A stretch of 55,395 bases of DNA. It comes from an uncultured Thiodictyon sp. GTDB taxonomy: Bacteria > Pseudomonadota > Gammaproteobacteria > Chromatiales > Chromatiaceae. Below the pieces are notes generated by a model that was not told where the DNA came from, did no database searches, and saw nothing but the letters and a program-made list of their open reading frames with translations. Location of the stretch: positions 1 to 55,395 of the forward strand of contig CAILVI010000405.1 of the NCBI GenBank assembly GCA_903837595.1. The letters are read 5' to 3'. Positions within the stretch are counted from its first letter, which is position 1, and every line of letters starts with the position of its first letter. Below, piece after piece: positions 4,783 through 53,000 of the stretch. The position numbers were made by a program, and so were the translations under genes.

Positions 4783-4915
4783 ACCAGGCACCGCGAGGTT
4801 GGCGGTCAGAGTATTAGTCAAAGCCATCCCGTCCAGGGGTCGGGGTTCGCATCGCCGGCTCGGGTATCATCGCGCAGATGCGCCCTTGCGCCACCCTGTC
4901 CCTGGAGTACCGCTG

Positions 4916-7219
4916 ATGCGACGCCTGATGATTCTGCTGTTGCTCTGCTGCTGGCCCCTACCCAATGCCACACATGGCGCCCCTCCCGGCCCCGTCACCC
5001 ACCCGCGCATCGGCCTGGTGTTGAGCGGCGGCGGAGCCCGCGGCGCGGCCCACGTGGGGGTGCTCAAGGTGCTGGAGGAACTGCGCATTCCAATCAGTGT
5101 GGTGGTCGGTACCAGCATGGGCGCGCTGGTCGGTGGAGCCTTCGCGAGTGGCGTGAGCCCGGCCGAGATGCAGCAGCGCCTGAGCTCCGCGGACTGGGAC
5201 CAACTGTTCGTCGATGACCCGCCGCGGGCCGATTGGCCCATCCGGCGCAAGGAGCAGGACCAGCAACCGGCCTTCGACTTCAGCATCGGCGTGAATGCCG
5301 ACAAGCTGCGCCTACCCAAGGGCGCCTTGACCGGGCAAGCACCCAAGCAAGCGGCCGGGGCCTTCTTGAGCGACCTGCTCCAGCTGCCCCAGGGCGCGCT
5401 GGCCGGTCAAAAGGTCGAGCTGTTTTTCAGTAACCTGGTGACTGGCGCGCGGGGGGTGCGGCGCTTCGATGACCTGCCGATCCCGTTCCGTGCCATCGCC
5501 ACCAACCTGGAGAACGGCGACATGAAGGTCTTCGACTCCGGTGCGCTGCCGGAGGTGATGCGTGCCAGCATGTCGGTCCCCGGGGTCTTCGCCCCGGTGC
5601 GGATCGACCACCACCCCTATGTCGATGGCGGGTTGGTGCGCAACCTCCCCATCGATGTGGCGCGGGGCATGGGTGTGGACCTGGTGATCGCGGTCAACCT
5701 GGGGAGTTCCTATCTGCCACCGGAGCAATTGAATTCGGTGGTCGGGGTACTCGGGCAGATGGTGCAGATCCTCACCCAGCAGAACGTGGATCGCTCGCTC
5801 AAGCTGCTGCGTCCCGGCCGGGATATCTTAATCTCACCCGACCTGGGTGACATTGGCTCAGGCGACTTCGATCGCGCCACCGATGCCATCCGCATCGGGA
5901 TGGCCGCCGGACACGCCGCCGCCGCGCGCCTGCGGCACCTGAGCCTGACCCCGGAGGCCTGGGCCGCCTGGCAGGCGAGCCACCGCCACCCCGCCGCGGA
6001 TACTGCCCCGATCACCGAGGTGACGGTCGCAGGCCTGCACCGGGTCAATCCGGCCGTGTTCAAAGGGCTCACCGAGCACCAGCAGGGACGGCCACTGGAT
6101 CCCCAGCAGTTGGACGCGGACATCTCCGCGATCTATGGCCAGGGTGACTTCGCGAACATCAACTATCACCTGGAGCGCCAACCGGGACGCCCGGGAGACC
6201 CGCCCGGCAACGCCAACCGTTTGATCGTCAATGCCCGCGAGAAGCCCTGGGGACCCGGCTATCTCACCTTCGGGGCCGGGATCATGACTGATTTCGAGGG
6301 CTACACCGCGCTCGGGGTGCGTGGGACCTATCGGCGCACCTGGGTCAATCGACTCGGTGCCGAGTGGTACACGACCGCCCAACTCGGCAGCACGCTCGAT
6401 CTCTACAGTGAATTCTATCAACCACTCGCGGCCTCTGGAAGCACCTTTATCGTGCCCAGCGTCGGTATCGCGAGCACCCCGCTCAGCGTCTTTGCGCGGG
6501 ACACACGCATCGCGCGCTATGATGTCACCCGTACCATACTCGCCCTGGACTGGGGGACGAAGCTGTTCGGCCCGAACGCGCAACTGCGCCTGGGCGCGGC
6601 CCTGAGCACGGTCGTCAGCCGGGAAGACACCGGCACCACCCCATTCCCCGAAGGGACGCGCAACGAGAACGGACTGCGTGGGCGCTTTGTCTATGACACC
6701 CTGGACAGCGCCTTTTTTTCCCACCACGGAAACCGTCTGGTCTTTGAGGCATGGTCGCCTCATCGCGCCATGGGGGCGGACCAGAGCTTCAACCGGGTGT
6801 CCGGGTCCTGGGAGGCGTCCGCCAGCCGCGGGGACAACACGCTGAGCCTGCATGTCATGGGCGGCGCGGCCATCGGCAATCGGATGCCCTACGAGGACCA
6901 GTTCGCACTGGGTGGATTCCTGCAATTGTCCGGCTATCCCGTCGAACAATTCCGCGCCAACCGATTCGGCTTCGGCTCGCTCGTCTACGCCCGCAAGATT
7001 GCCAGCCTGCAAGCGCCGGTGGGCCGCGGCATCTATCTCGGCGGCTCACTGGAAGTCGGCCGACTGGAGCATACCGATCCCGGCAGGACCCGACCCGGGA
7101 CCCGTTTCGGCAGCAGCCTGTTCCTCGGTGCCGATACCTGGGTTGGCCCGGCGTTTCTGGCCCTGGGTATCGCCGGGGACGGGTCCACCACCACCTATGT
7201 CATGTTCGGACGACCCTGA
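4916..7219 (+). CDS. Patatin-like phospholipase with POTRA/outer-membrane barrel (PlpD-type, type Vd), copy 2
   Basis: Same length (767 residues) and domain order as the preceding gene: signal peptide MRRLMILLLLCCW, oxyanion motif GGGARGAAH, GTSMG elbow, YVDGGLVRN dyad, POTRA-like link, and an outer-membrane barrel ending in FGRP. The pair is clearly a tandem duplication, because even the leaders match (GGGTATCATCGCGCA 40-50 bases upstream and CCTGGAGTACCGCTG just before each ATG). Substitutions cluster in the stretch after GVNA (residues about 125-150) and in the barrel, so the copies have diverged in surface-exposed positions more than in the catalytic core. The stop is only 10 bp before the V-ATPase subunit B start, so it may be co-transcribed with it. 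Confidence 0.9.
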   Translation: MRRLMILLLLCCWPLPNATHGAPPGPVTHPRIGLVLSGGGARGAAHVGVLKVLEELRIPISVVVGTSMGALVGGAFASGVSPAEMQQRLSSADWDQLFVDDPPRADWPIRRKEQDQQPAFDFSIGVNADKLRLPKGALTGQAPKQAAGAFLSDLLQLPQGALAGQKVELFFSNLVTGARGVRRFDDLPIPFRAIATNLENGDMKVFDSGALPEVMRASMSVPGVFAPVRIDHHPYVDGGLVRNLPIDVARGMGVDLVIAVNLGSSYLPPEQLNSVVGVLGQMVQILTQQNVDRSLKLLRPGRDILISPDLGDIGSGDFDRATDAIRIGMAAGHAAAARLRHLSLTPEAWAAWQASHRHPAADTAPITEVTVAGLHRVNPAVFKGLTEHQQGRPLDPQQLDADISAIYGQGDFANINYHLERQPGRPGDPPGNANRLIVNAREKPWGPGYLTFGAGIMTDFEGYTALGVRGTYRRTWVNRLGAEWYTTAQLGSTLDLYSEFYQPLAASGSTFIVPSVGIASTPLSVFARDTRIARYDVTRTILALDWGTKLFGPNAQLRLGAALSTVVSREDTGTTPFPEGTRNENGLRGRFVYDTLDSAFFSHHGNRLVFEAWSPHRAMGADQSFNRVSGSWEASASRGDNTLSLHVMGGAAIGNRMPYEDQFALGGFLQLSGYPVEQFRANRFGFGSLVYARKIASLQAPVGRGIYLGGSLEVGRLEHTDPGRTRPGTRFGSSLFLGADTWVGPAFLALGIAGDGSTTTYVMFGRP

Positions 7220-13166: not shown

Positions 13167-13331
13167 TACCGCGAAGCGGAACTCCCGGTCCCACTTCGTC
13201 GGTCGAGCGGGCGGCGGGAAATTGGACTGGATTAACAGGATTGCGCAGGATTAACAGGATTCCCAGCTGCAATGCCCAGCACGAGCAGTTCCTGTAAATC
13301 CTGTTAACCCTTTCTATTTCTTGATCTCACG
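13164..13331. repeat. Dispersed repeat, copy 1
   Basis: After the lipoprotein stop, the gap up to purN contains TACCGCGAAGCGGAACTCC, GGCGGGAAATTGGA, two tandem GGATTAACAGGATT-like units, an inverted AATCCTGTTAACC arm and TTTCTTGATCTCACGC. The same ordered blocks recur at 41808-42191. No reading frame is supported. The tandem and inverted AACAGGATT units can fold into a hairpin, so it may also end the lipoprotein transcript. Confidence 0.7.
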
Positions 13332-13375
13332 CTGACTCCCGGATGGTAGCGGGATCTGCGCTTCACTGTCTTCGT

Positions 13376-18417: not shown

Positions 18418-19221
18418 CTAGGAAAACCGCTGGGAACCGCCAACAGCGGGGACTGCCCACCCCCGCCACCGGTACATCCACAGCCCCAGATACTCCCTGA
18501 GTGCGCGGGTGCTGGCGGCCAGTGCGTCGGCATCGGGCAACCAGCGCAGCAAACTGGGCGGTTCGGGCATCACCTCGAAATCGGTGGGGGCCGGGATCGC
18601 CTCGATCCCCACCGCCCGGAAGCTTTCCAGCGCGCGTGACATGTGCAGGGCCGAGGTCACCAGCAACACGCGCTGAAAACCGCGCGCGCCGATCAAGTCG
18701 GCACTGTAGAGCGCATCCTCGCGGGTACTGCGACTACGCCCCTCCAACAACACCGCCTGCTCGGGTACCCCCAACTCGACCAGGAAGGCACGCGTGGCCT
18801 CGGCCACCGAACCGCGCTCACCGCTCCAGGGCATCGTGCCACCCGTCACGATCACCCAACGGGCCTTACCGGCGCGCGCAATCCGTGCCCCTTGCCACAC
18901 CCGATCGGCGGCCGCACCCAAGTCCGGATAGGGCCAGTGGGGCGGTCCGACGCTCACCCCCCCGCCCAACACCACCACCACATCGGCCTGCGGCAACCCG
19001 GCCACGGGATTGTTGGCAAACCGCCCCTCCAGCGACAGCCGCAGTGCATTGGAAACCACCGGCAACGACCAAGCCCCTAACCAGAGCACCGCGACCAGCA
19101 CCGCACCACCCCCCAACCGCCGTCGTCCGAACACCAACAGCAGCAGGGCCAGCACGCACAGAGCGAGCGACAGGCCCAACGGATAGGCCAGCTGCGCAAT
19201 CAGTTTATCGAGATAGAGCAT
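18418..19221 (-). CDS. YdcF/ElyC-family envelope protein (DUF218)
   Basis: 267 residues with two N-terminal membrane segments (residues about 7-50) and a DUF218 domain: ADVVVVLGGGV, ADRVWQGARIARAGKARWVIVTGG, EGRSRSTREDALYSADLI and LLVTSALHMSRALESFRAVGIEAIPAPTDF. ElyC relatives act in envelope biogenesis and in recycling of the shared undecaprenyl carrier. ATG 19221 has GGAG ten bases upstream and overlaps the heparinase gene end by 17 bp; an in-frame ATG at 19251 is the alternative. The overlap indicates an operon with the heparinase and glycosyltransferase genes. Confidence 0.85.
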   Translation of the reverse strand: MLYLDKLIAQLAYPLGLSLALCVLALLLLVFGRRRLGGGAVLVAVLWLGAWSLPVVSNALRLSLEGRFANNPVAGLPQADVVVVLGGGVSVGPPHWPYPDLGAAADRVWQGARIARAGKARWVIVTGGTMPWSGERGSVAEATRAFLVELGVPEQAVLLEGRSRSTREDALYSADLIGARGFQRVLLVTSALHMSRALESFRAVGIEAIPAPTDFEVMPEPPSLLRWLPDADALAASTRALREYLGLWMYRWRGWAVPAVGGSQRFS

Positions 19222-20986
19222 CAACACCAGGCTCCCGCCAGTCCAAATCAAAGCGACATCCGTGCCCCGTGAACCTCAGTTCCAGACACCGCGTCGGCAC
19301 CGCCCGACCGAACGCCGGATGCCACACGCTGGACGCCAGGCCAGCGTGACCACCGGTGAGCTGCCAGTCCACCAAATGACCGCCCGGCAAGCGCAGGCAC
19401 CCCCGCCCGCCGTCATCCGCAATCTCGGCAATCACCTCTGGATGCAGATGGAAACGGGCCACGGCCGCGCCGCACTCACCCTCGATCGCATCGGTGACCG
19501 TCAGCCGCTCCGATGTCAATTCCCAGGTGCGCCGATGCAACGGCCGCCCCGGCAGGCGGCGATAACCGTCGTGGGCGGCGCAGACCCTCAGCGCGCGCTC
19601 CGCGGTGAACTCGGTGCGCGTCCCAGACCGCCGTGCGCCGCGGTCAAGCTCCGGCACCGAGTCCACCCGCACATCCAGGGGCCGCGCGCGCCGCGCCACC
19701 CGGAAGCCACCCCAGACCTCGCTCGAATCCGCGCCGTCGATCTGCACCGTACTGTGCGCCGCAGTGCCCCGCTGGGCCAAGCGCTCCGGACCGCTGCCGT
19801 AGCGCGAGGTCCCGCCGTTGACGATCACCCGCTGCCCGAACAGCGACAGCTCGAACGACAGCGTATCGGCGTGGGCATGACCCGGCAGATAGTCAGCTCC
19901 AAGCGGCGCCACGTCCAGCAGCGCCACCGCTGAGCCGGCCTCAAGACGGCAATAGCCGGAGTCACGCAGCCAGACCACTGCGCCATTGCTGGACATCGGG
20001 ACGCAGAGCGTCCGCCCGACGCTCCCACGCTGGAGCGTGGGAGCGCGAGTGGCGAGCGTGGTCGCGGCGCCATCGAGACCCAGCCGCTGCCGATAATCAA
20101 CCAACTGCGCCAGCGTCGGGGCAATGCCCAACGCCGCGTCGTTGAAAAAGCCGATCTCGCCATCGGGATGGCACATGACGGTGAGCCAACGCGTCATGGA
20201 CTGCACACACTCACGGTATAAGCCCAGCATTGCCGGCACCGCCGTCTCCGGATAGGCAGCGACCAGATTGATCAGGTCCAGCACATCTTCCAGCACGATG
20301 GCGTGGTACATGGGGCTGCGCTCAAAATGCCCGCCGTCGGCCAGGGTCTGTTCGCGCAGCTCACGCGCCAGCAACCGCTCTGCACGGGCACGCCACGACT
20401 GCGCCTGCGGCCCAGCGAAAAAGGCCCCGGCAAAGGCCAGGGCCTTGGCATTCGCCAACAGATGGTTACCGAGTAGATGATGCTCCAGGCGTCGGCGCAG
20501 CCAGCGTGCCTGCACCGCCAGGCTCGCCACACACTCGGGTGGTAGCGCATTGCCCGCCAGCGACCACTTGACCCAATTGACGATGCGCAGCGAGGTCGGA
20601 TAGGGCTCCCAACCGGTGCCGACCCCCGGCGGATTCTCCGCCACCCAGCGCCGCAACAGCCCCTGCTGCCAGGCGACCCGTTGCGGCCCAGTGGCCGCAC
20701 TCAGGTCATCGAAATAGTGCAGGTTATACAGCCACAGCTTGTCACGGGCGGGATTGTTCCAGGCCCCCGGCCCAAGGAGTGCGTGCGTCTCGTTCAGCAA
20801 GCGCAAGCTCGCCGGCCCCAGCAGCGACACCGGCCGCAGCGCCGGGGCAACCCAGTGCGACTGCGCTCGCCGCAGCGGCGGGGCCGGGCGCGTATCAGGA
20901 TGGGGTCGGTACAACCGAAACCAGACGCGCCCATAGAACTGCACCGGACGCAAATGGCGCAGCGTATGAAAATACCGCCGCAGCAT
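19205..20986 (-). CDS. Heparinase II/III family polysaccharide lyase
   Basis: 593 residues: an alpha-helical toroid N-terminal domain (WNNPARDKLWLYNLHYFDDL, GWEPYPTSLRIVNWVKW, HHLLGNHLLANAKALAFAG, HFERSPMYH) and the C-terminal beta-sandwich Hepar_II_III domain (GHAHADTLSFELSLFGQRVIVNGGTSRYG). It probably cleaves a uronic-acid-containing exopolysaccharide during assembly or turnover. No signal peptide is obvious. Residues about 314-330 (APTLQRGSVGRTLCVP) are encoded by a palindromic element and interrupt the otherwise conserved passage between the helical and sandwich domains. Stop and start overlap as TGATG with the upstream glycosyltransferase gene. Confidence 0.9.
   Translation of the reverse strand: MLRRYFHTLRHLRPVQFYGRVWFRLYRPHPDTRPAPPLRRAQSHWVAPALRPVSLLGPASLRLLNETHALLGPGAWNNPARDKLWLYNLHYFDDLSAATGPQRVAWQQGLLRRWVAENPPGVGTGWEPYPTSLRIVNWVKWSLAGNALPPECVASLAVQARWLRRRLEHHLLGNHLLANAKALAFAGAFFAGPQAQSWRARAERLLARELREQTLADGGHFERSPMYHAIVLEDVLDLINLVAAYPETAVPAMLGLYRECVQSMTRWLTVMCHPDGEIGFFNDAALGIAPTLAQLVDYRQRLGLDGAATTLATRAPTLQRGSVGRTLCVPMSSNGAVVWLRDSGYCRLEAGSAVALLDVAPLGADYLPGHAHADTLSFELSLFGQRVIVNGGTSRYGSGPERLAQRGTAAHSTVQIDGADSSEVWGGFRVARRARPLDVRVDSVPELDRGARRSGTRTEFTAERALRVCAAHDGYRRLPGRPLHRRTWELTSERLTVTDAIEGECGAAVARFHLHPEVIAEIADDGGRGCLRLPGGHLVDWQLTGGHAGLASSVWHPAFGRAVPTRCLELRFTGHGCRFDLDWREPGVDALSR
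19999..20045. repeat. Palindromic element inside the heparinase gene (copy A)
   Basis: Two adjacent hairpins: GGACGC-AGA-GCGTCC (19999-20013) and GCTCCCACGC-TGGA-GCGTGGGAGC (20021-20044). The reverse complement matches, block for block, the element at 24173-24221. It is a multiple of three in effect, being read through without a stop, and adds about 16 residues to the protein. Confidence 0.8.
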
Positions 20987-22230
20987 CAGCCGCCCCGCGC
21001 GCCCACCACGCCTTTCAGCACCACCAACATGCGCCGCGCCAGCGCCGTGCGGTCATAGTGGGGCGCGGCCTGCAGACAGCGCGCACGCAGGTGTTGGCAG
21101 AGCATGGGGTCTTGGGCCAAGCGCAGCACGCCCGCGCACAGGGCCTGCGCATCCTCCGGCGCCAACACCAGGCCCACGCCCTCACGTTCGACGATCTGGG
21201 CAGACTCGCCCGCCACGCCGTGTAACACCGGCAGCCCCATGCCCATGCACTCGAACAGCTTCGAGGGAATCACCTTGGTAAAAGTATCACACTTTTTCAG
21301 ATGGATAATCGCCACATCCAGCAGCGACCAGTAACGCGGCATATCGGCCTTCGGCACCGAGTCAAGAAACAGGACATTATCCAACCCCATCCGCGCGGCG
21401 GTCGCCTTCAGCGCCAGCTTGCGCGCACCGTCGCCCAGCAGCACGAAACGCACCCGAGCGCCCTGCGGATGCGCACGCATCAGCGCCGCCGCCTCCAGCA
21501 CCGTCTCCAATACATGCGCCATCCCATGCGTGCCGATGTAGCCGGCGACAAAGCGACCAGTCAGCCCGAACCGCTGGGCCAACGCCGCATCCCGCTCCAC
21601 CGGGTGAAAACGCGTCAGATCAACGCCATTGGTGACGACATGGACCTTGCTGCCGTCAATGCCGCGCGCGATCAAGTTGCGCCGGAACGACTCGGTCACC
21701 GCCACCACCGCGGCCGCTCGCCGATAAAGAAACAGCTCCACGCCCTCCACCAACCAGAGCAACGCAGGGTCCTTCATAGCCCCGACGGTCTTGATCGACT
21801 CCGGCCAAAGGTCGCGCAATTCGAACACAAACGGCCGCCAGTGGAACACCGACAGCATCCAGGCCGCACAGTTGGTGAAGAACTGCGGCGAGGTACCCAC
21901 GATCACATCCGGCCGCCGCTGCGCCAACCCGACCAGCAAGCCCATCACCATAAAGGACAGATAATCGAGCGTCCGCCGCGTAAAACCCGCGTTGGCGATC
22001 ATGTAGGTCCAGCCCCGTATGACCTCAATGCCGTCCATCGTCTCGCGCTGCCACAACCGGTTACGGTAACCAGGAAAGACCTTCCCGGTGGGAAAATTCG
22101 GCACGCAGGTAATCACCGTCACCCGATGCCCCGCCCGCACCCACTCGCGGCAATGCTCAAAGGTGCGTGACGCCGGGGCATTCACCTCCGGCGCAAAGTT
22201 ATCGCTCAGAAACAGGATGTGCACGTCCAC
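20986..22230 (-). CDS. Glycosyltransferase family 4, WbuB-like
   Basis: 414 residues, GT-B fold. The N-terminal part reads ILFLSDNFAPEVNAPASRTFEHCREWVRAGHRVTVITCVPNFPTGKVFPGY, characteristic of WbuB-type fucosamine/N-acetylhexosamine transferases of O-antigen loci. The C-terminal donor domain shows GYIGTHGMAHVLETVL, FVLLGDGARK and SKLFECMGMGLPVLHG. It acts at the cytoplasmic face. The start is GTG 22230; a second GTG is six bases downstream. A pair of 12-bp direct repeats lies 18-45 bp upstream. WecB (UDP-GlcNAc epimerase) is the next gene upstream, consistent with an amino-sugar donor. Confidence 0.9.
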   Translation of the reverse strand: MDVHILFLSDNFAPEVNAPASRTFEHCREWVRAGHRVTVITCVPNFPTGKVFPGYRNRLWQRETMDGIEVIRGWTYMIANAGFTRRTLDYLSFMVMGLLVGLAQRRPDVIVGTSPQFFTNCAAWMLSVFHWRPFVFELRDLWPESIKTVGAMKDPALLWLVEGVELFLYRRAAAVVAVTESFRRNLIARGIDGSKVHVVTNGVDLTRFHPVERDAALAQRFGLTGRFVAGYIGTHGMAHVLETVLEAAALMRAHPQGARVRFVLLGDGARKLALKATAARMGLDNVLFLDSVPKADMPRYWSLLDVAIIHLKKCDTFTKVIPSKLFECMGMGLPVLHGVAGESAQIVEREGVGLVLAPEDAQALCAGVLRLAQDPMLCQHLRARCLQAAPHYDRTALARRMLVVLKGVVGARGG

Positions 22231-22247
22231 TCCGCAAGATCGGTTGA

Positions 22248-22275
22248 GTGTTAACTTTTCTTGGTGTTAACTTTT
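22248..22275 (-). promoter_or_regulatory. Pair of direct repeats upstream of the WbuB-like gene
   Basis: GTGTTAACTTTT occurs at 22248-22259 and again at 22264-22275, a 16-bp spacing, in an AT-rich patch within a GC-rich region. On the coding strand this reads AAAAGTTAACAC twice, 18-45 bp before the GTG start. GTTAAC is itself palindromic. It is a candidate regulator-binding or promoter site; no known regulator is assigned. Confidence 0.4.
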
Positions 22276-22375
22276 ACAATTCGAGTACCACTTGCCGCCC
22301 GAGCGACAAGGATCACATCCCGTGGATGGGGTCATCCCAACTGGAATGACGGACGGCGATGAACGCCGTTGACAA

Positions 22376-23476
22376 TTAAGCCTCAACCGCTAAGACGTCC
22401 TCAAGCCCTGCCACAATCCGTGCCCCCGCCCGCCCATCCCAGAGCGCCGGAATGCCGCCCCGCGGCCAGTCCCCGGCGAACAGCCGCTCCAGCGCGGGCG
22501 CCAGCTTAGCCGGGTCGGTGCCGATCAATGCATTGGTACCGATACTCACCGTTTCCGGCCGCTCGGTGCTGGCGCGCAACGTCATGCATGGCACGCCCAG
22601 CACCGTCGTCTCCTCGGTGATGCCGCCGGAATCGGTGATCACGGCCTTGGCGTGCCTGACCAGATAATTGAACTCCAGATAAGCCTGGGGTTCAACCAGC
22701 TGCAGGCTCGTCGGCAGGTCCGCCAATGCACGCAACGTCTTCGCCGTACGCGGATGTACCGGAAAGATGACCGGCAGACCCCGTGTACCCTCACCGATCG
22801 CCCCCAGCATCTGCGCCAGGGAATCGGCCGAATCCACGTTAGCCGGTCGATGCAGCGTAACAACAAAATAGCCGCCTGGCCGCAACCCCAACACCTCCCA
22901 GAATGCCGGCGGCCGCAGCCGCTCCAGGTTGGTCAGCAGGGAGTCGATCATGGTGTTACCGACAAAAAAGATCCGCTCCTCCCCCACCCCCGCGCGGCGT
23001 AGATTCGCGTTGGCGAATTCACTGGTGGTGAAGAACCAGTTGGTGATGGCATCCGTCACCATCCGATTGATCTCCTCCGGCATGCTCCAGTCTCCGGAGC
23101 GAATTCCCCCCTCAACGTGCGCCACCGGGACCCCGAGCTTTTGCGCCGCAATCGCACAGGCCATGGTCGAGGTCACATCGCCGACGACCAGACACAGGCG
23201 GGATGGCGCCGCCAACAGCAGCCGCTCGTAGCCGAGCATGATCGCCGCCGTCTGCTCCGCCTGGGTGCCCGACCCTACCTCCAGATTCACATCCGGCTGC
23301 GGGATGCCAAGCTGGGAAAAAAAATCGCCCGACAAGCGGGCGTCATAGTGCTGACCGGTATGCACCAACCGGTACCTCAGGCGCCCGCCCGCCGCTGCCC
23401 TGGCCTCTAAGGCACGGATGATGGGCGCGATCTTCATGAAATTCGGACGGGCGCCAGCGATGATGTCGATCAGCAC
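22376..23476 (-). CDS. wecB: UDP-N-acetylglucosamine 2-epimerase (non-hydrolysing)
   Basis: 366 residues. Interconverts UDP-GlcNAc and UDP-ManNAc for surface polysaccharide synthesis. Clear motifs: IAGARPNFMKIAPI, HTGQHYDARLSGDFF, GDVTSTMACAIAAQKLGVPVAHVEGGIRSGD, PEEINRMVTDAI, VTLHRPANVD and ITDSGGITEETTVLGVPCMTLR. The start is GTG 23476. It shares strand with the WbuB-like and dehydrogenase genes but is separated from each by about 105-145 bp. Confidence 0.95.
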   Translation of the reverse strand: MLIDIIAGARPNFMKIAPIIRALEARAAAGGRLRYRLVHTGQHYDARLSGDFFSQLGIPQPDVNLEVGSGTQAEQTAAIMLGYERLLLAAPSRLCLVVGDVTSTMACAIAAQKLGVPVAHVEGGIRSGDWSMPEEINRMVTDAITNWFFTTSEFANANLRRAGVGEERIFFVGNTMIDSLLTNLERLRPPAFWEVLGLRPGGYFVVTLHRPANVDSADSLAQMLGAIGEGTRGLPVIFPVHPRTAKTLRALADLPTSLQLVEPQAYLEFNYLVRHAKAVITDSGGITEETTVLGVPCMTLRASTERPETVSIGTNALIGTDPAKLAPALERLFAGDWPRGGIPALWDGRAGARIVAGLEDVLAVEA

Positions 23477-23581
23477 AATTTCAGAATCTTCAGTGTCAAC
23501 GATTCGTGATTATACCGCGGCTGTGCTAAACAGCTTGTGAACCGTGCAGCAAAGTACGGCAGGCAGCCGACAGCGCTAGCC

Positions 23582-25747
23582 TTAGGCGGCCACCTCAAGC
23601 GTCACCCGACTGACCTCCAGGATCTCCGCCAGCGGGATCGGCGCCGACCCGCCCGTGCGCAGGGCCGTCACAAAGGCTGCCGCGCAGGCACGCTGGCCCT
23701 TGTCCTGGCGCCATAGATTGAGCCGCTTGAAACCCGGCCAACCGAAACCGGTCAGGCGACGGAAATTGTCGAGTTGCAGCACCCTCCCGGCGGCGAACAC
23801 CTCCAGCCGCTCCTTGGGAAAGGCCTTACTGCCGTTGGCCAGATAGTGGATGGTCCCGAGCGAGCCGTCGTCAAAACCCAGGCTGATGCTCACGCAATCC
23901 CCCGTGGCCGAGTCCATGACCAGCCGTTGTGCCCGCACGATCGGCACCCCGGCCAGAAATCGCAGCAGGTCGATAAAGTGACAGGCCTCGCCGATGATCC
24001 GCCCACCGCCCACCGCCCGGTCCTGGGTCCAGTGCCCCGCCGGGATGGCCCCGGCGTTGACCGTCATCACGAAGGCCTTGGGCCCGGTCACGCCGGCCAG
24101 CAAGGACTTGATCTTCTGCACCTGGGGCGCGAAACGGCGGTTGAAACCGACCATCAGCAAAGGCGCCTCGTTCTGGCTCCCACGCGCCAGCGTGGGAGCC
24201 AGCGCGGACGCTCCAGCGTCCAGTTGGATGGGAGCGACCGCCGCCTCAATGCGACACAACTCATCAAGGGTCAGACACAGCGGCTTCTCCACAAACACCG
24301 CCTTGCCCGCGGCCAGCGCCTGCAACACCAACCGCGCATGACTGTCATGCCGCGTGGTAATCACCAGCGCGTCGGCCTGCGGATCGGCAAATAGCCCCTC
24401 GGTGTCCGTCGTGGTGTGCGCAAAGCCAAACTTGCGCCCGGCATGCACCCCGCTCACCCCGCCGCTGGAGGCCACCGCCACCAGCCGTGCGCCCGCCGCC
24501 TTGAACGCCGGGATCAACACCCCGGTCGCGTAATTTCCCGCACCGATAAAGCTCACCGCCCCAGCCGCTGCCCCCACGCCGGGGTGCAGGGAGGCCGGGG
24601 TAACCTGCACGGTGCGCGCGCGTAACCGCTGCTCCTCCCCGCCCGGGTACTCCAGCACAATCCCCAGCGACGGCTCGGCCCCGCCGACCACCGCGTAGGC
24701 GCGCGGCGCATCCGCCAGCGCGAACCGATGCGAGATCAGTGGCGCCACATCAAGGCACCGATCGGCCAGCATATCCAGCACCGCCTCGAAATTGCGCTGT
24801 TCGGTCCAGCGCACAAAGCCCACCGGATAATCCTGCCCCTGCTCCTCATAGCGCGGATCATAGCGCCCCGGCCCGTAGGAGCAAGAGACCTGAAAACTCA
24901 GCTCTTTCTCGTAGAAATCCGCCCGCGACAGCTCCAGCCCCACGACCCCGACGAGCACGATCCGCCCGCGCTGGCGACACATCAGCGCCGCTTGGTGCAC
25001 CGGCTCATTGCTGCGCGTGGCCGCCGTGATGATCACCGCATCGACGCCCCGCCCGCGCGAGAAGGTGTGCGCCACCGCCACCGGGTCCTGCCCAGCCTTG
25101 AGATCGACCGTCTCGGCACCGAATTGGCGGGCCAGCTTGAGCTTCGCCGGGTCCATATCAATGCCCAGCACCCGACACCCCTGCGCGCGCAGCAGCTGCA
25201 CCGCCATCAGCCCGATCAGCCCGAGCCCGGTCACCACCACCGCCTCGCCCAGCGACGGTGCCACCAGCCGAATACCCAGCAACGCGATCGCCCCGATCAC
25301 CGTAAAGGCCGCTGACTCGTCCGACACGCCATCCGGGATGCGGGCACACAGGTTCACCGGCACGCACGCCATCTCCGCGTGCCGGCCGTTGGAGGCCACC
25401 CGATCACCCACCGCGAAGCCCGTCGCCCCGGCACCCAACTCGGCCACCACCCCGACGTTGCAGTAGCCCAACGGCAACGGCTGACCCAGCTTGTTGAGCA
25501 CCGCCTCCACGGTCTGCACCAGGCCGTCGGTGCGCACCTTCTCCAGCACCTGCCGCACCTTGTCCGGCTGCTGGCGGGCCTTCTCCAGCGGATTGGCCTT
25601 GCCGAAATCCACCAGCATCCGCTCAGTCCCGGCGGAGATCAGCGTGCGGGTGGTGCGGATCAACAGTGCACCGCGCCCCAGGCGCGGGCACGGCACCTCC
25701 GCCAACTGGGTGTGGCCGTCCTTGAGATTCTGCAGAATTTGTTTCAC
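23582..25747 (-). CDS. Bi-domain oxidoreductase: zinc-type alcohol dehydrogenase plus Gfo/Idh/MocA
   Basis: 721 residues. Residues 1-370 are a medium-chain dehydrogenase/reductase domain (GYCNVGVVAELG, VVVTGLGLIGLMAVQLLRAQGCRVLGIDMDP). Residues about 390-721 are a Gfo/Idh/MocA domain (AVSFIGAGNYATGVLIPAFK, VFVEKPLCLTLDEL, GEACHFIDLLRFLAG). Such fusions sit next to heparinase II/III and WecB genes in exopolysaccharide loci and probably oxidise a sugar nucleotide. The start is GTG 25747 (VKQILQNLKDG), since the 22 upstream residues are not conserved in pattern. Residues about 507-524 derive from an inserted palindromic element located between the conserved EKPLCLT helix and the MVGFNRRFAP strand. 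Confidence 0.9.
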   Translation of the reverse strand: MKQILQNLKDGHTQLAEVPCPRLGRGALLIRTTRTLISAGTERMLVDFGKANPLEKARQQPDKVRQVLEKVRTDGLVQTVEAVLNKLGQPLPLGYCNVGVVAELGAGATGFAVGDRVASNGRHAEMACVPVNLCARIPDGVSDESAAFTVIGAIALLGIRLVAPSLGEAVVVTGLGLIGLMAVQLLRAQGCRVLGIDMDPAKLKLARQFGAETVDLKAGQDPVAVAHTFSRGRGVDAVIITAATRSNEPVHQAALMCRQRGRIVLVGVVGLELSRADFYEKELSFQVSCSYGPGRYDPRYEEQGQDYPVGFVRWTEQRNFEAVLDMLADRCLDVAPLISHRFALADAPRAYAVVGGAEPSLGIVLEYPGGEEQRLRARTVQVTPASLHPGVGAAAGAVSFIGAGNYATGVLIPAFKAAGARLVAVASSGGVSGVHAGRKFGFAHTTTDTEGLFADPQADALVITTRHDSHARLVLQALAAGKAVFVEKPLCLTLDELCRIEAAVAPIQLDAGASALAPTLARGSQNEAPLLMVGFNRRFAPQVQKIKSLLAGVTGPKAFVMTVNAGAIPAGHWTQDRAVGGGRIIGEACHFIDLLRFLAGVPIVRAQRLVMDSATGDCVSISLGFDDGSLGTIHYLANGSKAFPKERLEVFAAGRVLQLDNFRRLTGFGWPGFKRLNLWRQDKGQRACAAAFVTALRTGGSAPIPLAEILEVSRVTLEVAA
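24173..24221. repeat. Palindromic element inside the dehydrogenase gene (copy B)
   Basis: The hairpin CTGGCTCCCACGC-GCCA-GCGTGGGAGCCAG (24173-24202, 13-bp perfect stem) is followed by GGACGC-TCCA-GCGTCC (24206-24221). This is the same two-hairpin arrangement as in the heparinase gene but inverted relative to it. It is read through in frame as DAGASALAPTLARGSQ. Confidence 0.82.
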
Positions 25748-25876
25748 GGTACAACCTAGATCACATGAACACCCACCGACGGCAGCCGTCCTGCGGCCAC
25801 GCGACAGATGCAAGAAATCGGGATGAGTGGCCGCCGTCCTTCGGGTATCTGAGCGTCCCAGCCGGTTGGCACGGAC

Positions 25877-26626
25877 TCAGATCTGGCCGCCACGCCACAG
25901 CACGCAACCCACAACTTGAACGTGTATCCCTTGATCTGCGCGAGGGACCGTCTCGTCCGGATAGCGCTCGCGATTTTCGGAGCGCAAGATGAGGCATCCA
26001 TCATAGCGGCGATAGAGGCGCCGCACCCGCAACTCGCGGGCGTAGCGAAGCGCGAAGATCTGTCCATCCCGGACCGCGCGGTCACCGAGATTGACGAGCA
26101 GCACATCACCCTCATGGATCAACGGCGCCATGCTGTCTCCCTGGGCGTCAATGACAGCAGCATTGTCCACGCTCAGTCCGATCCGGCTGAGCCAGTCAGC
26201 GTCAAATGCCAGTGGGGGCGTCTGCGGCTCAAACACCAGCTCGCCGCTGCTCGCGGAAAACACTAACCGCCGCCTGGGAATCAGCACCGAGCGATCGGTC
26301 GGCACGTCCCCCGATGCCAGGGAACGACCGCGCGCATCCGGATCTGCGGTAGCCACCTGGCAGCCACTCACGGGCTCCGCAATCGCCGGCCCAGGCGCGC
26401 ACTCGGTTGCCGGCGGCGAGGTGATCGAGCACGCGGCGTCGTCAACGAGCAGGTGGTCCAGGGTCCAGCCGAGCGCGTCGGCGACCAGCCTTTGTCTGGT
26501 TCTGGGGAGCCCTCGCTTCTTCCAGTTATTGAGGTCCTGACTGCGCACGCCGATCCGCGCCGCAAACGCGGACAGGGATTCACCCCGCGCCCGAAGCGCC
26601 GCCTCCACTTTGATCATGGCTGTCAT
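25877..26626 (-). CDS. XRE-family repressor with S24/LexA-like peptidase domain
   Basis: 249 residues. The N-terminal helix-turn-helix is LSAFAARIGVRSQDLNNWKKRGLP. The C-terminal S24 domain is DAQGDSMAPLIHEGDVLLVNLGDRAVRDGQIFALRY, with the catalytic Ser in GDSM and the Lys/Arg region RELRVRRLYRRYDG. In the expected Lys position of S24 proteases the stretch reads RYARELRVRRL without an obvious Lys, so self-cleavage is doubtful. It is the CI-like repressor type used by prophages and integrative elements. No phage operon follows; the surroundings look decayed. A palindrome upstream is a likely operator. Confidence 0.87.
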   Translation of the reverse strand: MTAMIKVEAALRARGESLSAFAARIGVRSQDLNNWKKRGLPRTRQRLVADALGWTLDHLLVDDAACSITSPPATECAPGPAIAEPVSGCQVATADPDARGRSLASGDVPTDRSVLIPRRRLVFSASSGELVFEPQTPPLAFDADWLSRIGLSVDNAAVIDAQGDSMAPLIHEGDVLLVNLGDRAVRDGQIFALRYARELRVRRLYRRYDGCLILRSENRERYPDETVPRADQGIHVQVVGCVLWRGGQI

Positions 26627-41860: not shown

Positions 41861-42065
41861 GCAATTCCAAATTTGGGCTGCATCGCGCGACCTATGGTGG
41901 ATGCGGCGCGCGCAACCCACGCGCCCGGTCCCGAAAACCGCGCGGCGCGCCTTATCCACCCTATGATGGAGCCGGTTTCGTAGGGTGGATAAGCGTAGCG
42001 CATCCACCGTCAGCCCCGCCGCCAGCACGATGCTGGCGGCGGTCGCGCAAATTTGGAATTGCTGA
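41861..42065. mobile_element. MITE-like element with 15-bp terminal inverted repeats and 10-bp flanking duplications
   Basis: Terminal inverted repeats GCAATTCCAAATTTG (41861-41875) and CAAATTTGGAATTGC (42048-42062) are perfect. The element is flanked by ACAGGTGGCG at 41851-41860 and 42066-42075. Internally it has a 13-bp stem CTTATCCACCCTA/TAGGGTGGATAAG (41951-41963, 41981-41993) and a 12-bp hairpin (42016-42042). No coding capacity. It sits inside a copy of the dispersed repeat found at 13164. Confidence 0.75.
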
Positions 42066-42191
42066 ACAGGTGGCGGGAAATTGGACAGGATTAACAGGAT
42101 TTGCCAGGATTAGCAGGATTACTGGTTGGGATTTATATCCACAACACATCTTGTAAATCCTTAGAAATCCTGTACATTTCTTGATCTCACG
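42066..42191. repeat. Dispersed repeat, copy 2 (right part)
   Basis: GGCGGGAAATTGGA followed by GGATTAACAGGATT, a second GGATTAGCAGGATT, an inverted AATCCTGTA arm and TTTCTTGATCTCACGC. This is the same order as at 13215-13331. Its left part (TGCCGCGAAGCGCAACTCC, 41812-41830) lies beyond the MITE-like element. Confidence 0.7.
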
Positions 42192-42212
42192 CGCAGTCCA
42201 AGCGGGTTCGCG

Positions 42213-47001: not shown

Positions 47002-50000
47002 TCATAAAAAAGGCACTTACCTCAACCGCCCGGTCTGGCGCGTTATTCGCTCTTGCGTTAATGGTCGCACCGGCCAACGCCGGCACGCCTGAACCCTTCA
47101 AGTACCTCTTTGGGATGGGGGCCGATCTGCATGACGGCGGACAGCTTGAAGTCGTCAACAAGGACTTGACGATCGACCCAAATGTCCCAATCGGCTGGCC
47201 TGAATACAATGCCGTCAGTGGTGAGGCGCGGATCGCCACCGGTGACATCGACGGTGATGGCAAAGATGAAATAGTCATAGGCTTTGCCCCCGTCGGTCAG
47301 AGCGGCCTGCCGGGCGGCCGGTTTGAAGTGCTTGATGACGATTTTTCATTCTTGACCTGGGGTCAGGTCGAGTGGGCTGACTACAATTCCAGCAATGGTG
47401 AAACACGTCCCGCCGTGGGTGATATCGATGGCGACGGCAAGGCCGAGATTGTGATCGGACTCGGACCCGGTGGCGGTGGGTTGGTCGAAACCTTCCGCTT
47501 CGCCAATGGCGCCCTCTCACCGATCGGCTGGGCCGATGTCAACTGGCCGGAATACAGTCAGGCCAATGGCGAGACCTGGCCGACACTCGGCGAACTCGAT
47601 GGCGATGGCCGGGCCGCGCTGGTGATCGGTTTGGGCCAGGGCGGGGCCGGCACCTTCCTGGTCAAGAAGGGCTTCGATGCGGCTCGCTTTGCCGCGGGAC
47701 AGGACCCCTGGATCGAGGAACTCCGGGGTACTCTGTCGTGGACCGACTACGCGACCGCAATGGGCGAGACTCGTCCTGCGGTTGGCGATCTCACTGGCGA
47801 TGGAACCCGGAAAATCGTTGTCGGTCTGGGAAAGTCCGGCGGTGGTAATCTCGAGATCTTCGATTATGTCGGGTCCTCCCTCGTACCCAGCGGATCGCTG
47901 AAGGTCGATTGGCCGGAATATAATGCAGCCAATGGCGAGACCCGTCCGGTCATTGGGGATAGCGACGGTGACCGACCAGCCGAGATCATGGTTGGCCTCG
48001 GCCGCGGCGGCGGCGGCTACGTCGATCTGTTTGATGATGCCAAGGCGCAATTTGTCGGTCTCGACCGCTTCCAGTTGGGTACGCCGGCCTATCAGGCAGC
48101 GAACGGCACCATTTGGCCCGCCTTCAAACGGGAACGCCCGCCCGTCTTGTACCAGCTCAGCGTGCTCAAGAACGGCACCGGGACGGTCGGCGGCGGGGGG
48201 CGTTACGTGGCCGGCACCCGGGTGGCCCCCACCGCGACCGCGGCGGACGGCTCGGCCATGGCCGGCTGGACGCCCAGCAGTTGCGGTGTCACGTTCGCCC
48301 TCACCGCCGATACCACCTGCTCCGCCACCTTCACGCAGCTGCCCGCCTACACCCTTGCCGCAAAACTCAGCGGGAGCGGAGCGGTCACCAGCACACCGGC
48401 GGGGATTTATTGCGGAGCCGATTGCACCGCCCCCTATGCCAGCGGCACGGCGGTGGCCTTGACCCCCACGCCCGCCATCGGCTACACGTTTTCCGGCTGG
48501 AGCGGTGCCTGCACCGGCACCGGGGGCTGTACCGTACCGATGAGCGCCGCCAAGACCGTCACCGCGACATTCAAGACGATCCCCGGATACATAGAACAAG
48601 GCACCACCGCGACCCTGGCCGACGCCTCCCAGCGCCAGGCGCAGCCACTGACCGCGGGATCGCCGCGCTACCTGGAAACGCGCTCCGCGCGCGCCCTGAC
48701 CATGGGCTTCGACGCACTGGATCTCGCCGTCGCCACCCGCGACCCGGCGGCCTATAGGCTCATCGCCCAGACCGATCCGGCCTATGCCAGCCCCCAGCCG
48801 GCCACCCGGGTGGGCGGCGACCGCCAGGCCGTCGGCGTCGACGGCGCCAATCAGCCGGTGGCCGAGACGCGGCTGCACCTGCTGTTGCCCTACCCGCTGC
48901 GCCCCGGTGTCGACTATCGCCTGGACGCCTGCGCCGCCGTGGGCGGCAGCGCCGATCCGGCGGCGCCCTGCCACGCGCTTGCGGTGCGCTACGACCCGAC
49001 GCTGGCCTCCGGCTCCATCCAGGTCGATCAGGTCGGCTATGCCCCGGGCACGACCAAAATCGCTTACCTCGGCAACTGGTTAGGCAGCGCCGGCCCCTTA
49101 CCGGTGGATGCCACGGGTTTTGAGGTCGTTGATACCTCGTCCGGTGAGTCGGTCTTCAGCGGCCAGGCCCGCCTCACCGCCGCCGCTGACCCCTGGAGCG
49201 GCAACGACGTGTACCAGGCCGACTTCAGCACCCTGGAGCGCCCGGGACACTACCGGCTGCGGGTCCCGGGGCTCGGGGTATCCGACCCCTTCGCCATCGC
49301 CGCCGACGTCTATGACGCACCCTATCGCGCCGCCCTGCGCCTCTTCTACCATGCCCGCAACGGCACGGCGGTGGTCGCGCCCTGGGCCGAGCCTGGCTAC
49401 GAGCGGCCCCAAGGCGGGGTCCCACCCGCCATGGATGCCGCCTTCCACGCCGCGGTGGCCGGCTCCCCCCTGAGCGCCGGCAGCACGACGGATACCGGGC
49501 CGACCGCCCGGCATGCGGTCCGCCATGGCTGGTTCGACTCCGACGACTATGGCCAGTACGTCCCCAACGCGGCCCCGGTCTGGTATCTGGTGGGCGCCGC
49601 CATGGACCTCGCGCCGCAGCGCTTCGGCGACGGCGATCTCAACATCCCCGAGTCCGGCAACGGCATTCCGGACGTCCTGGACGAACTCGATTGGGGCCTG
49701 GACTGGCTGCTCGGAATGCAGGACCCGGCGGATGGTGGCGTCTGGTTCCGGGTCGGCAGCCGCACCTGGGATTCAGTCCCGCCCTACCTGATCGCCACCC
49801 CGCGCCTGTTGTTTGAAAAGACCAGTCACGCCACTGCCGCCTTCGCCGCCGCCTGCGCGCTGCACGCCCGGCTGATCCGCCCCTACCACCCCGAGCGCGC
49901 CGATGCGGCCCTGGCCGCGGCACGCCGCGCCTGGGACTTCCTCGCGAGCCACACTGACTGGCCCGCCGAGGGACAACGCTACCTTGGCCCGACGGGCGTG

Positions 50001-53000
50001 CGCGCCGCCGACTACTCGGATGTCTCAGCACGCGACAACCGCCTCTGGGCCGCCGCCGAGTTGTACCGCACCACCGGCGAGGCGTCCTATCGAACCGCCT
50101 TCGAGACCCTGATGCCCCAGGTCAAGATCGACCCCACCGCGGGCATCGGCTTCCAGGACGTTTCACTGGCCGGGCTCTGGGCCTATCTGCTTAACGAGGA
50201 TGCGGGCAAGAACACGACGCTGGTCAAGCAGGCCAGCGACGTATTCATCGCGGCGGCGGATTGGCGGGTGCGCAATGCGACCGCGCACCCCTTCCGCGCC
50301 CCCAGCCACCCGACCATCGGTGTCGTCGGCTGGGGTTCCTTCGGGGTCTCCACCCGCGCCACCTTGCCGCTGCTGCAGGCCTATCGGCTCACCGGCAAGA
50401 TCGACTATCTGGACCGAGCCTGGCAGAGCCCCCACCCGCAGCTCGGGGCCAATCCCCAGTCGCTGAGCTATCTCCCGGGCTTCGGCGCCAGATACCCCCA
50501 CTTCCCGCTTTCCAAGCTCACCAAGGGCGCCGGCGCGGGCCCCGGCGACCCCATCAAAGGGCTGCCGGTCCTCGGGCCCCAGTTCCAGTCTTCCGCTGAG
50601 ATGACCGCGATGAACGCCGTCTACGCTCCCCCCGCGCAGATCGGCACGACACTGCCCACGAACCCGGCCGGGTACGCGCAACTCTACCCCGCGCTGCGCC
50701 GTTATACCGACGCCCGGGGTCTGCCGGCCATGTCCAAACCCACGGTAGTGGACTATGCCCAGGTGGGGCTAGCCTTCGGGCTGCTGCGCCGGGGCGGACT
50801 CAAAGAGGAGATCGACACGGCGGGTAAGGTCCAACACCTGCTCACCGTGACGAAAAACGGCACCGGTAGCGGTACGGTCGGCGGTGGGGGGCGTTATGCG
50901 GCCGGCACCGCGGCGACGGCGACCGCGATCGCGGCAGACGGATCGACCTTTGCCGGCTGGACGCCGTCGAGTTGCGGCACGGCCGTCGCCCTCAATGCGG
51001 ACACGACATGCATGGCCACCTTTACCTTGCTCCCCAAATATGCCCTGACCGTCATCCTGAGCGGAAGCGGCACAGTCACCAGCATCCCGGCCGGGATCAA
51101 CTGCGCAACCGATTGCGCTGAGGCCTATGTCAGCGGCACCGCGGTCAACTTGACCATGGCCCCGGCAACCGGCTATCTGTTTTCCGGCTGGAGCGGTGCC
51201 TGCGCCGGCACCGGCGGGTGTATGGTGGCGATGGGCGCCGTTCAGACTGTCACCGCGACCTTCAAGGCCATCCCGGCGACCGTCGAGCGGGGCATCACCT
51301 CGGACCTGGCCGACGCCTCCACGCGTCAGATCCAACCCCTGACCGCGGGGCCTGCCCGTTATGTGGAGACGCGCTCGGCGCGTGCCCTGACCCTGGGCTT
51401 CGACACCCTCGATCTCAGCGTCGCCACCCGTGACCCGTCCCTCTATACCCTTACGGATCCGAGCGATGGCAGCCCCCAAGCGGCCACGCGGGTGGGCGGC
51501 GACCGCCAGGTCGTCGGCTTCGACACCGCCAAGCAGCCTCAGCTGGAGACGCGCCTGCACCTGCTCTTCCCAACCCCGCTGCGCTCCGGTGTAGACTATC
51601 GGCTGGACGCCTGCGCCGCCCTGGGCAGCAGCGCCGATCCGGCGGCACCCTGCCACGCAATGGCGGTCCGCTACGACCCGACCCTGGCCTCGGGCTCCAT
51701 CCAGGTCGATCAGGTCGGCTATGCCCCGAGAACGACCAAGATCGCCTTCCTCGGCAACTGGCTGGGCAGCGCCGGACCCCTGCCGGTGGACGCGACCGGG
51801 TTCGAGGTTGTCAATGCCGTCACGGGCGAGTCGGTCTTCAGCGGCCAGGCCCCCCTGACTGCCCCCGCGGACCCCTGGAGCGGCAACGACGTGTACCAGG
51901 CGGACTTCACCGCTCTGGACCAGCCGGGGCGCTACCGGCTGCGGGTTCCGGGGCTCGGGGTGTCGGACCCCTTCGCCATCACCGCCGACGTCTACGACGC
52001 CCCCTACCGCGCAGCGCTGCGCCTCTTCTACCATGCCCGCAACTCCACGCCGGTGGTTGCCCCCTGGGCCGAGCCTGGCTATGAGCGGCCACAGGGCGGG
52101 GTCCCGCCCGCTATGGACGCGGCCTTCCACGCCGCCGTGGCCTCCTCGCCCCTGAGCGCCGGTAGTTCGACTGACACTGGTCCGACCGCCCGACACGCGG
52201 TGAGCCACGGCTGGTTCGACGCGGGCGACTACGGCCAATACGTCCCCAACGCGGCACCGATCTGGTACCACGTCGGTGCCGCCCTGGATCTGGCCCCGCG
52301 ACGCTTCGTCGACGGCGATCTGAATATCCCTGAATCCGGCAACGGCATCCCGGATGTCTTGGACGAGCTCGATTGGGGCATGGACTGGCTGCTCGGGATG
52401 CAGGACCCGGCCGACGGCGGGGTCTGGTTCCGCGTCGCCAGCCGCAACTGGGACGCCGTACCGCCCTACCTCATCACCACGCCGCGCCTGCTGGCCGAGA
52501 AGACCAGCCATGCCACAGCGGCCTTCGCCGGCGTCTGCGCACTGCACGCCCGGTTGATCCGGCCCTACCGGCCGGCGCGCGCCGACGAGGCCCTGGCCGC
52601 GGCGCGGCGGGCCTGGGACTTCCTCGCGAGCCACCCCGACTGGCCCGCTGAGGGGCAACGCTACAAGAACCCCGCGGACGTGCATGCCGGCGACTACTCG
52701 GATGCCTCAGTCCGGGACAACCGCCTCTGGGCCGCCGCCGAGCTGTTCCGCACCACCGGCGAAGCGGCCTATCGGAGCGCCTTCGAGGCACTCCTGCCGC
52801 AGGTCAAGATCGATCCTACCGCGGGGGTCGGCTTCCAGGGCTTTGAACAGGCCGGACTCTGGGCCTACCTGCTCGCCGATGGCGCAGGCAAGAACCCCAG
52901 TGTGATGGCCCAGGCCCGCGGCGTCTTCATCGCGGCGGCGGACTGGCGCATACGCGAGGCCAACACCAATCCCTTCCGCGCCCCGACCCATCACACCCTG

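Follow-up and report, generated by a model that had tools for sequence, protein, structure and literature searches.

The window, by which we mean the whole stretch of 55,395 nucleotides analysed here, is contig C405 of the genome of an uncultured Thiodictyon species (G000; assembly of 7.79 Mb). Two genes of one cluster, both on the minus strand, each contain a copy of the same two-hairpin repeat (Table 1). The copy in the heparinase-like gene is read in the orientation of the repeat unit and encodes approximately residues 314-330 (RAPTLQRGSVGRTLCVP). The copy in the dehydrogenase gene is read against the unit and encodes approximately residues 531-547 (LDAGASALAPTLARGSQ), the two copies thus being opposite in orientation relative to their host genes. 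Counted as an ORF from a putative TTG start, the dehydrogenase has 743 residues with the insert after residue 524.

Table 1. Features of the window that bear on the repeat and its host genes
Feature	Position	Strand	Evidence
Half-unit 1 (CGCG foot, big hairpin, linker, small hairpin)	19999..20047	-	covariance model (70.8 bits), shuffles, folding, coding signal
Big hairpin, copy 1: GCTCCCACGC-TGGA-GCGTGGGAGC	20021..20044	.	stem search, folding
Small hairpin, copy 1: GGACGC-AGA-GCGTCC	19999..20013	.	stem search, folding
Half-unit 2, inside the dehydrogenase gene	24173..24221	+	covariance model (62.4 bits), shuffles, folding, coding signal, orthologue comparison
Big hairpin, copy 2: GCTCCCACGC-GCCA-GCGTGGGAGC	24176..24199	.	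stem search, folding
Small hairpin, copy 2: GGACGC-TCCA-GCGTCC	24206..24221	.	stem search, folding
Host gene 1, heparinase II/III-like protein, 593 aa	19205..20986	-	ORF, Pfam, structure model
Host gene 2, two-domain dehydrogenase (ADH_zinc_N + GFO_IDH_MocA)	23582..25813	-	ORF, Pfam, structure model
Glycosyltransferase, same gene cluster (context)	20986..22230	-	domain search
UDP-N-acetylglucosamine 2-epimerase, same gene cluster (context)	22376..23476	-	domain search

The window contains exactly two occurrences of the big stem, written as TCCCACGC-N(2-8)-GCGTGGGA, at 20023 and 24178, and none was found in 100 shuffles. The small stem GGACGC/GCGTCC is also found twice (19999 and 24206) where 0.22 occurrences are expected, and two or more were seen in 2 of 100 shuffles. 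Both copies fold as two hairpins (z scores of -5.5 and -7.0), with none of 200 shuffles being equally stable. A known Rfam family was ruled out for the repeat, as a scan of positions 19000-26000 returned two matches of only 21-22 bits against a gathering score of 70, neither of them at the copies.

Each host gene remains open through its copy, with coding signal in frame on both sides as indicated by a codon-usage score trained on 11 window genes from which both host genes had been left out. The observation made in the preliminary description, namely one two-hairpin repeat at these two places, in opposite orientations and read through without stops, therefore holds. Its further statement that the encoded peptides differ is correct for the small-hairpin part but not for the palindrome: the two genes use the same frame for the 24-nt big palindrome, and the peptide APTL(Q/A)RGS is consequently common to both proteins.

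Domain matches and structure models place the inserts in linkers or loops of both proteins. The heparinase insert lies in a linker, since the Pfam match to Hepar_II_III_N ends at residue 286 and that to Hepar_II_III_C begins at 337, and in the predicted structure it occupies a low-confidence loop (residues 307-335) between the helical and strand domains, with a mean pLDDT of 61.8. The dehydrogenase model, which is poor (mean pLDDT 44.7), has the insert in a low-confidence loop (residues 527-549), preceded by a helix (516-526) and followed by a strand (553-555).

Other repeats are also present in the window. A second family is found at 13205-13339 and 42064-42199 (73-79% similar stretches with GGATTAACAGGATT motifs). 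Neighbouring similar stretches at 2293-2592 and 4889-5188 (88%) and at 48173-53501 (72-86%, within a 2218-aa ORF) suggest tandem gene or module duplication.

A dispersed family of inverted dimers

A covariance model of the repeat was built from 17 units, both window copies among them. The basic unit of about 49 nt consists of a CTSG foot followed by two hairpins, of 9-10 bp and about 6 bp; the foot reads CTCG or CTGG in 14 of the 17 aligned units and CTTG, GTGG or CGCG in one each. The complete element is formed by two such units arranged head to head and measures about 109 bp. The two-hairpin pieces of the window, originally taken for the whole element, are thus halves of an inverted dimer.

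The preliminary description had made its case depend on further copies in the genome, and these are numerous. G000 contains 40 exact palindromes with a 4-nt loop, and the model finds at least 80 units at 58 loci (E <= 0.001), comprising 18 head-to-head pairs, 37 single units and 3 loci of other arrangement. At E <= 0.01, at least 89, 135, 112, 5, 129, 100, 57 and 116 units were counted in G000 to G007, respectively, i.e. at least 57-135 in six congeners and at least 5 in a seventh, all of these being minimum counts, as scoring was limited to 150 candidates in each genome. The 108 units of G007 at E <= 0.001 were grouped into 64 loci which, combined with the 58 loci of G000, gave a set of 122. 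Of these, 57 have a length of 100-120 bp, which in 30 cases is exactly 109 bp. Across the class, 38 of 369 sampled genomes, G000 included, matched at E <= 1e-4 with 16 candidates scored per genome, several of them weakly.

The hairpins covary. In an alignment of 137 distinct units fitted to the model, nearly all taken from the RAYT loci described below and including partly overlapping reverse-strand matches, both sides change in 12 of 15 pairs, with a covariation score of 0.300; shuffles gave 0.093 and slid alignments no more than 0.056. When the partner was displaced by 1-3 columns, the share of paired positions fell from 95.9% to 34-47%. The fold obtained for a complete intergenic dimer is a single long hairpin (z -11.4). 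All six reading frames are open in 26 of 57 dimers, compared with 7.6% of dinucleotide shuffles, and in 44 of 57 short loci, compared with 36.7% of shuffles; as the copies are related, this openness is a property of the family and not the outcome of 57 independent trials.

Near-identical cores with differing flanks were found at 20 loci of G004, picked for a good match to one dimer, which suggests recent spread of the element in this genome. In the same genome, a larger MITE (CAATGCCATTAAGTTAAGC...GCTTAACTTAATGGCATTG) with 11-12 bp target duplications carries the core at L201-L205 and L207, and the duplicated target at L202 and L207 is the palindromic loop of another core copy. Target duplications were seen only for this outer MITE (G004). 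A search for an exact empty site, in which two 6.6-6.8 kb regions of G007 were compared with six congeners, showed only larger block differences where the comparison was inspected, in G005. Further, the terminal hairpin end is repeated in tandem in the dehydrogenase linker (L044 and L043), where repeats of 24 nt or 8 codons occur in G007 and, in larger number, in G005, and similar arrays lie beside other copies (L003 near 1600, L345 near 2050-2120). These repeats suggest slippage at element ends.

Copies inside genes and their orthologues

At 5 of the 122 loci from G000 and G007, the element is flanked on either side by coding signal in a single open frame (cut-off 0.12 on each side). In the training windows of the score, 5% of coding sequence fell below 0.206 and 1% of non-coding sequence above 0.164. 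A copy flanked on one side by less than 15 codons of frame was not callable, and insertions at gene ends are therefore missed by this census. The five loci are the two window copies, one copy in a DUF7948/SBBP protein of G000 (C292) and two sites in the dehydrogenase of G007. Based on this low fraction, genes are not the usual home of the element, most copies lying outside recognisable genes. This part of the earlier proposal is borne out: the palindromic repeat is dispersed and occurs in frame within protein genes in both orientations, and with the C292 copy, which is read in a third frame, several reading frames are represented. On C120 of G000 (L067 390-3047), two FGE-sulfatase domains share one open frame and have a full dimer between them; this is either a fusion or two in-frame genes, and the case was left ambiguous because the coding signal drops around the element.

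At the window site of the dehydrogenase, a full 36-codon dimer, whose second half is matched by the window copy, is present in frame in G005, G006 and G007. Given this match to half of a dimer kept by three congeners, the window copy has probably changed since its arrival and was probably not inserted in its present half form. In G005 and G007, the interdomain linker of the enzyme contains a second full dimer, and in G006 half a dimer is visible there at the end of the contig. No unit is present in this linker in G000. A second dehydrogenase copy of G004 (C284, L365 1546-2000) carries single in-frame units at both the window site and the interdomain linker. At the window site, the unit of this second gene copy uses a different frame from the window copy and may for this reason represent a separate event. 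No unit was found by the model (E <= 0.1) in the dehydrogenases of G002 and G017 or in the first copy of G004.

At the heparinase site, G006 has a decayed unit in the same place and frame (36.1 bits), and no unit was detected by the model in G002, G004, G005 and G007. Alignment with orthologues, suggested in the preliminary description as a route to precise insertion borders, did not yield exact borders; those of the heparinase are inexact because its linker varies in length between orthologues. The 42% identical dehydrogenase of G017, from another genus, lacks the insert, and the same residues in distant genera, which would have spoken against insertion, are thus not present in this protein.

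A RAYT clade as probable mobiliser

The first 42 Y1-transposase loci examined (12 from G000, 30 from congeners) lacked units in REPtron position. A good unit was seen at L221, at a distance of about 0.8 kb, and a weak unit at L234, and all 12 loci of G000 were without palindrome or unit nearby. These transposases therefore did not fit as neighbours of the element and appear to belong to other clades. The right clade was then shown by L251, one of 20 further loci, where a 197-aa ORF of G004 lies between element dimers, one of which begins 11 bp upstream of its start codon; at L252 and L253, units are located 3-4 kb from the Y1 gene. With 95.8 bits, the G004 ORF scores above the cut-off of 80 set for the NCBIfam model REP_Tyr_transpos, and NHCH, WQ and YIHNNP motifs were identified in it by eye. 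A search among solved structures returned no match at E 0.01.

Searching named genomes with the G004 protein alone yielded 44 related loci from Lamprocystis, Thiocapsa, Thiohalocapsa, Thiocystis, Thiodictyon, Gallionellaceae, Desulfobulbus, a cyanobacterium and many Planctomycetes. Units within 250 bp of the RAYT gene are present on both sides at 33 of these loci, on one side at 4 and on neither side at 7, some of the 44 being cut by contig ends. Unit density is 6.3 per kb near the RAYT gene compared with 0.24 further out. For 28 of the 33 loci, a plus unit upstream and a minus unit downstream correspond to the arrangement of the dimer, a count that has to be read with the reverse-strand matching of palindromic units in mind.

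As a control, 50 RAYT loci from eight congeners and 14 genomes picked for element match were analysed, 30 of them chosen by family search and 20 by hand. All 11 loci whose proteins share 46-76% identity with that of G004 have units on both sides; they represent 10 distinct places, among them the Lamprocystis locus already included in the set of 44 relatives. None of the other 39 loci has units at E <= 0.01; identity to the G004 protein does not exceed 42% in 29 of these, and the remaining 10 are unmatched at 1e-4.

One member of the clade is encoded by G000 itself (C562; L345 1180-2120). The protein is 54% identical to that of G004, with NHLH as its HuH motif and YIHWNP as its Y motif. Its flanking units keep the two-hairpin plan with other stems (GTGACACCGC, 22-28 bits), and the exact cognate RAYT of the window's element type was for this reason not found in the assembly. 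The unrelated stem sequence suggests that RAYT and element have diverged together. An exact RAYT partner for the element type of the window may be absent from the assembly, and the decay seen in copies of this type would be in keeping with such an absence. In ten loci inspected for autonomous long elements between distant units, no transposase was seen among ORFs of at least 80 codons with a coding score above 0.1, judged by eye from their first 60 residues. Based on its linkage to the units, this RAYT clade, extending from Chromatiaceae to Planctomycetes, is the probable mobiliser of the element.

Origin and fate of the inserts

We interpret the two window copies, with a probability of roughly 0.8, as in-frame halves of a RAYT-associated REP/MITE-like element that inserts and then decays. 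This reading builds on the repeat family and its dimer form, the covarying hairpins, the RAYT linkage, the in-gene sites shared between genomes and the occurrence of full, half and decayed states. The RAYT clade would catalyse movement of the dimer through single-stranded DNA. As inverted units lie on both sides of the RAYT gene, the dimer itself looks like a non-autonomous, internal-deletion derivative of a RAYT flanked by inverted units. Most copies would land outside recognisable genes and a few in protein linkers or loops, where they likely survive because all frames of the element are often free of stops and loops tolerate extra residues, presumably with no effect on protein function. In-frame dimers would subsequently decay by loss of one half or by mutation of the stems, with the reading frame being retained. 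More tentatively, and with more doubt than confidence on our part, the CTSG twin-hairpin 109-bp dimers of this cross-phylum RAYT clade, with most of their frames open, could be a recurrent natural source of new protein linkers, generated by insertion of about 36 codons and frame-keeping decay to half-units or altered loops, with the same surface-polysaccharide genes being hit repeatedly.

Alternatively, the inserts could be in host use, either as functional protein linkers or as RNA hairpins tuning expression in the polysaccharide cluster. Such a role would agree with the finding that five congeners, G000 included, have in-frame units in the same region of the dehydrogenase, and several of them a second insert in this gene. 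However, the inserted residues show no sign of constraint, albeit over few sites: between G005 and G007, 5 non-synonymous and 3 synonymous changes are found in 72 insert codons, compared with 46 non-synonymous and 73 synonymous changes in the 747 codons of the remaining dehydrogenase. The halved or decayed state of copies and the existence of dehydrogenases free of units further argue against host use, which we consider unlikely. Slightly less likely still is that the core is merely the passenger of the larger MITE (CAATGCC...GGCATTG ends, 11-12 bp target duplications), moved by another transposase. Several core copies of G004 do sit within such a MITE with clear target duplications, but nearly identical cores at L219 and L220 of the same genome are without the outer ends, none of 15 inspected G000 dimers has such ends within 30 bp, and the RAYT association concerns the core rather than the outer MITE.

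RPE-1 copies of Rickettsia lie largely inside ORFs. The resemblance to Rickettsia palindromic elements, whose normal niche is inside reading frames, had been noted in the preliminary description, and in-frame copies in three different G000 proteins, in both orientations and different frames, would fit it. Here, however, the clearly intragenic copies make up the small minority given above, from two genomes only and with two of the five in one congener's dehydrogenase gene, while the RAYT linkage points to a REP system instead. We therefore regard a Rickettsia-type element as improbable, marginally more so than a passenger of the MITE. Chance palindromes in variable GC-rich linkers, which both vary in length among orthologues, are refuted by the shuffles of the big stem and the dispersed near-identical copies.

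The RAYT-associated element favoured here shares with REP/BIME/REPIN systems (REPtrons), as characterised in passages of PMC3116915, PMC2817692, PMC6006769 and PMC3733652, a short palindrome in many, mostly extragenic copies, inverted doublets and a RAYT with units on both sides. Singlets are treated as doublet remnants in such systems (PMC3116915), and occasional in-frame insertion into proteins is known from them as well. The element differs by its CTSG foot, where theirs is GT[AG]G, by its two hairpins per unit, and in that one related unit type accompanies a RAYT clade from Chromatiaceae to Planctomycetes and a cyanobacterium. The foot places it outside the GTAG REP super-family. CGTC REPs are described in the relevant passages of PMC3733652 as having a CGTC tag, an 8-9 bp stem starting with A-T pairs and no transposase link, whereas the stem of the present element starts Y-R then T-A, lacks an unpaired CGTC tag and is RAYT-linked. 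Rickettsia RPE-4 and RPE-6, which are CGTC REPs, resemble it as palindromic repeats translated inside ORFs, but differ through the minority of intragenic copies and the RAYT linkage found here (PMC3733652, in part).

For the transposase, comparison by motif description shows that YIH[QN]NP, WQ and recurring non-GTAG structures of TnpA-Y1 subclass 2.6 (RAYT group 5) fit the G004 protein, and YIxNNP of subclass 2.4 fits in part; subclass 2.6 is, however, mostly from Bacteroidetes with NH[LIV]H as HuH motif, while the present clade comes from other phyla, with NHCH in G004 (passages of PMC6006769). Non-GTAG 'atypical secondary structures' beside subclass 2.6 are mentioned in the same passages. 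TIRtrons, compared by their description in part of PMC3733652, are also similar in having a RAYT-like gene between inverted repeats, possibly with two palindromes each, and in recurring as dimers.

Since in-frame REP insertions have been published, the phenomenon as such is known. Di Nocera and colleagues list in-frame intragenic REPs from many bacteria, e.g. in uvrA of Thioalkalivibrio and as RPE-4/6 in Rickettsia, and note that linkers and loops may tolerate them (PMC3733652, in part). Passages of PMC6006769 report that REPs have inserted in frame into RAYT genes of subclass 2.4. In-frame MITE insertions are mentioned in a passage of PMC5896051. The parts of PMC2817692 and PMC12306157 considered here make no mention of Chromatiaceae repeats. 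Among the matches listed in the literature and in the text covered here, no description of the twin-hairpin unit or of these host genes was found; for the strings GTTCCCACGC and CTCCCACGC, the matches listed had titles on other subjects, and a consensus written in ambiguity codes would escape such a search. In-frame insertion is thus a known, rare fate of REPs; what looks new is the variant itself, together with its probable transposase clade and the series of states found within genes.

In conclusion, an unlabelled repeat of purple sulfur bacteria is now tied to a probable mobiliser, and non-GTAG two-hairpin REP-like elements accompany one RAYT clade across phyla. For annotation, stretches of the type SAWECRADA...LDAGASALAPTLERGSQ should be recognised as translations of the element and not as conserved protein motifs. 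The orthologue series, with no unit, a full in-frame dimer, a half and a decayed unit, lets the fate of a translated mobile element be followed.
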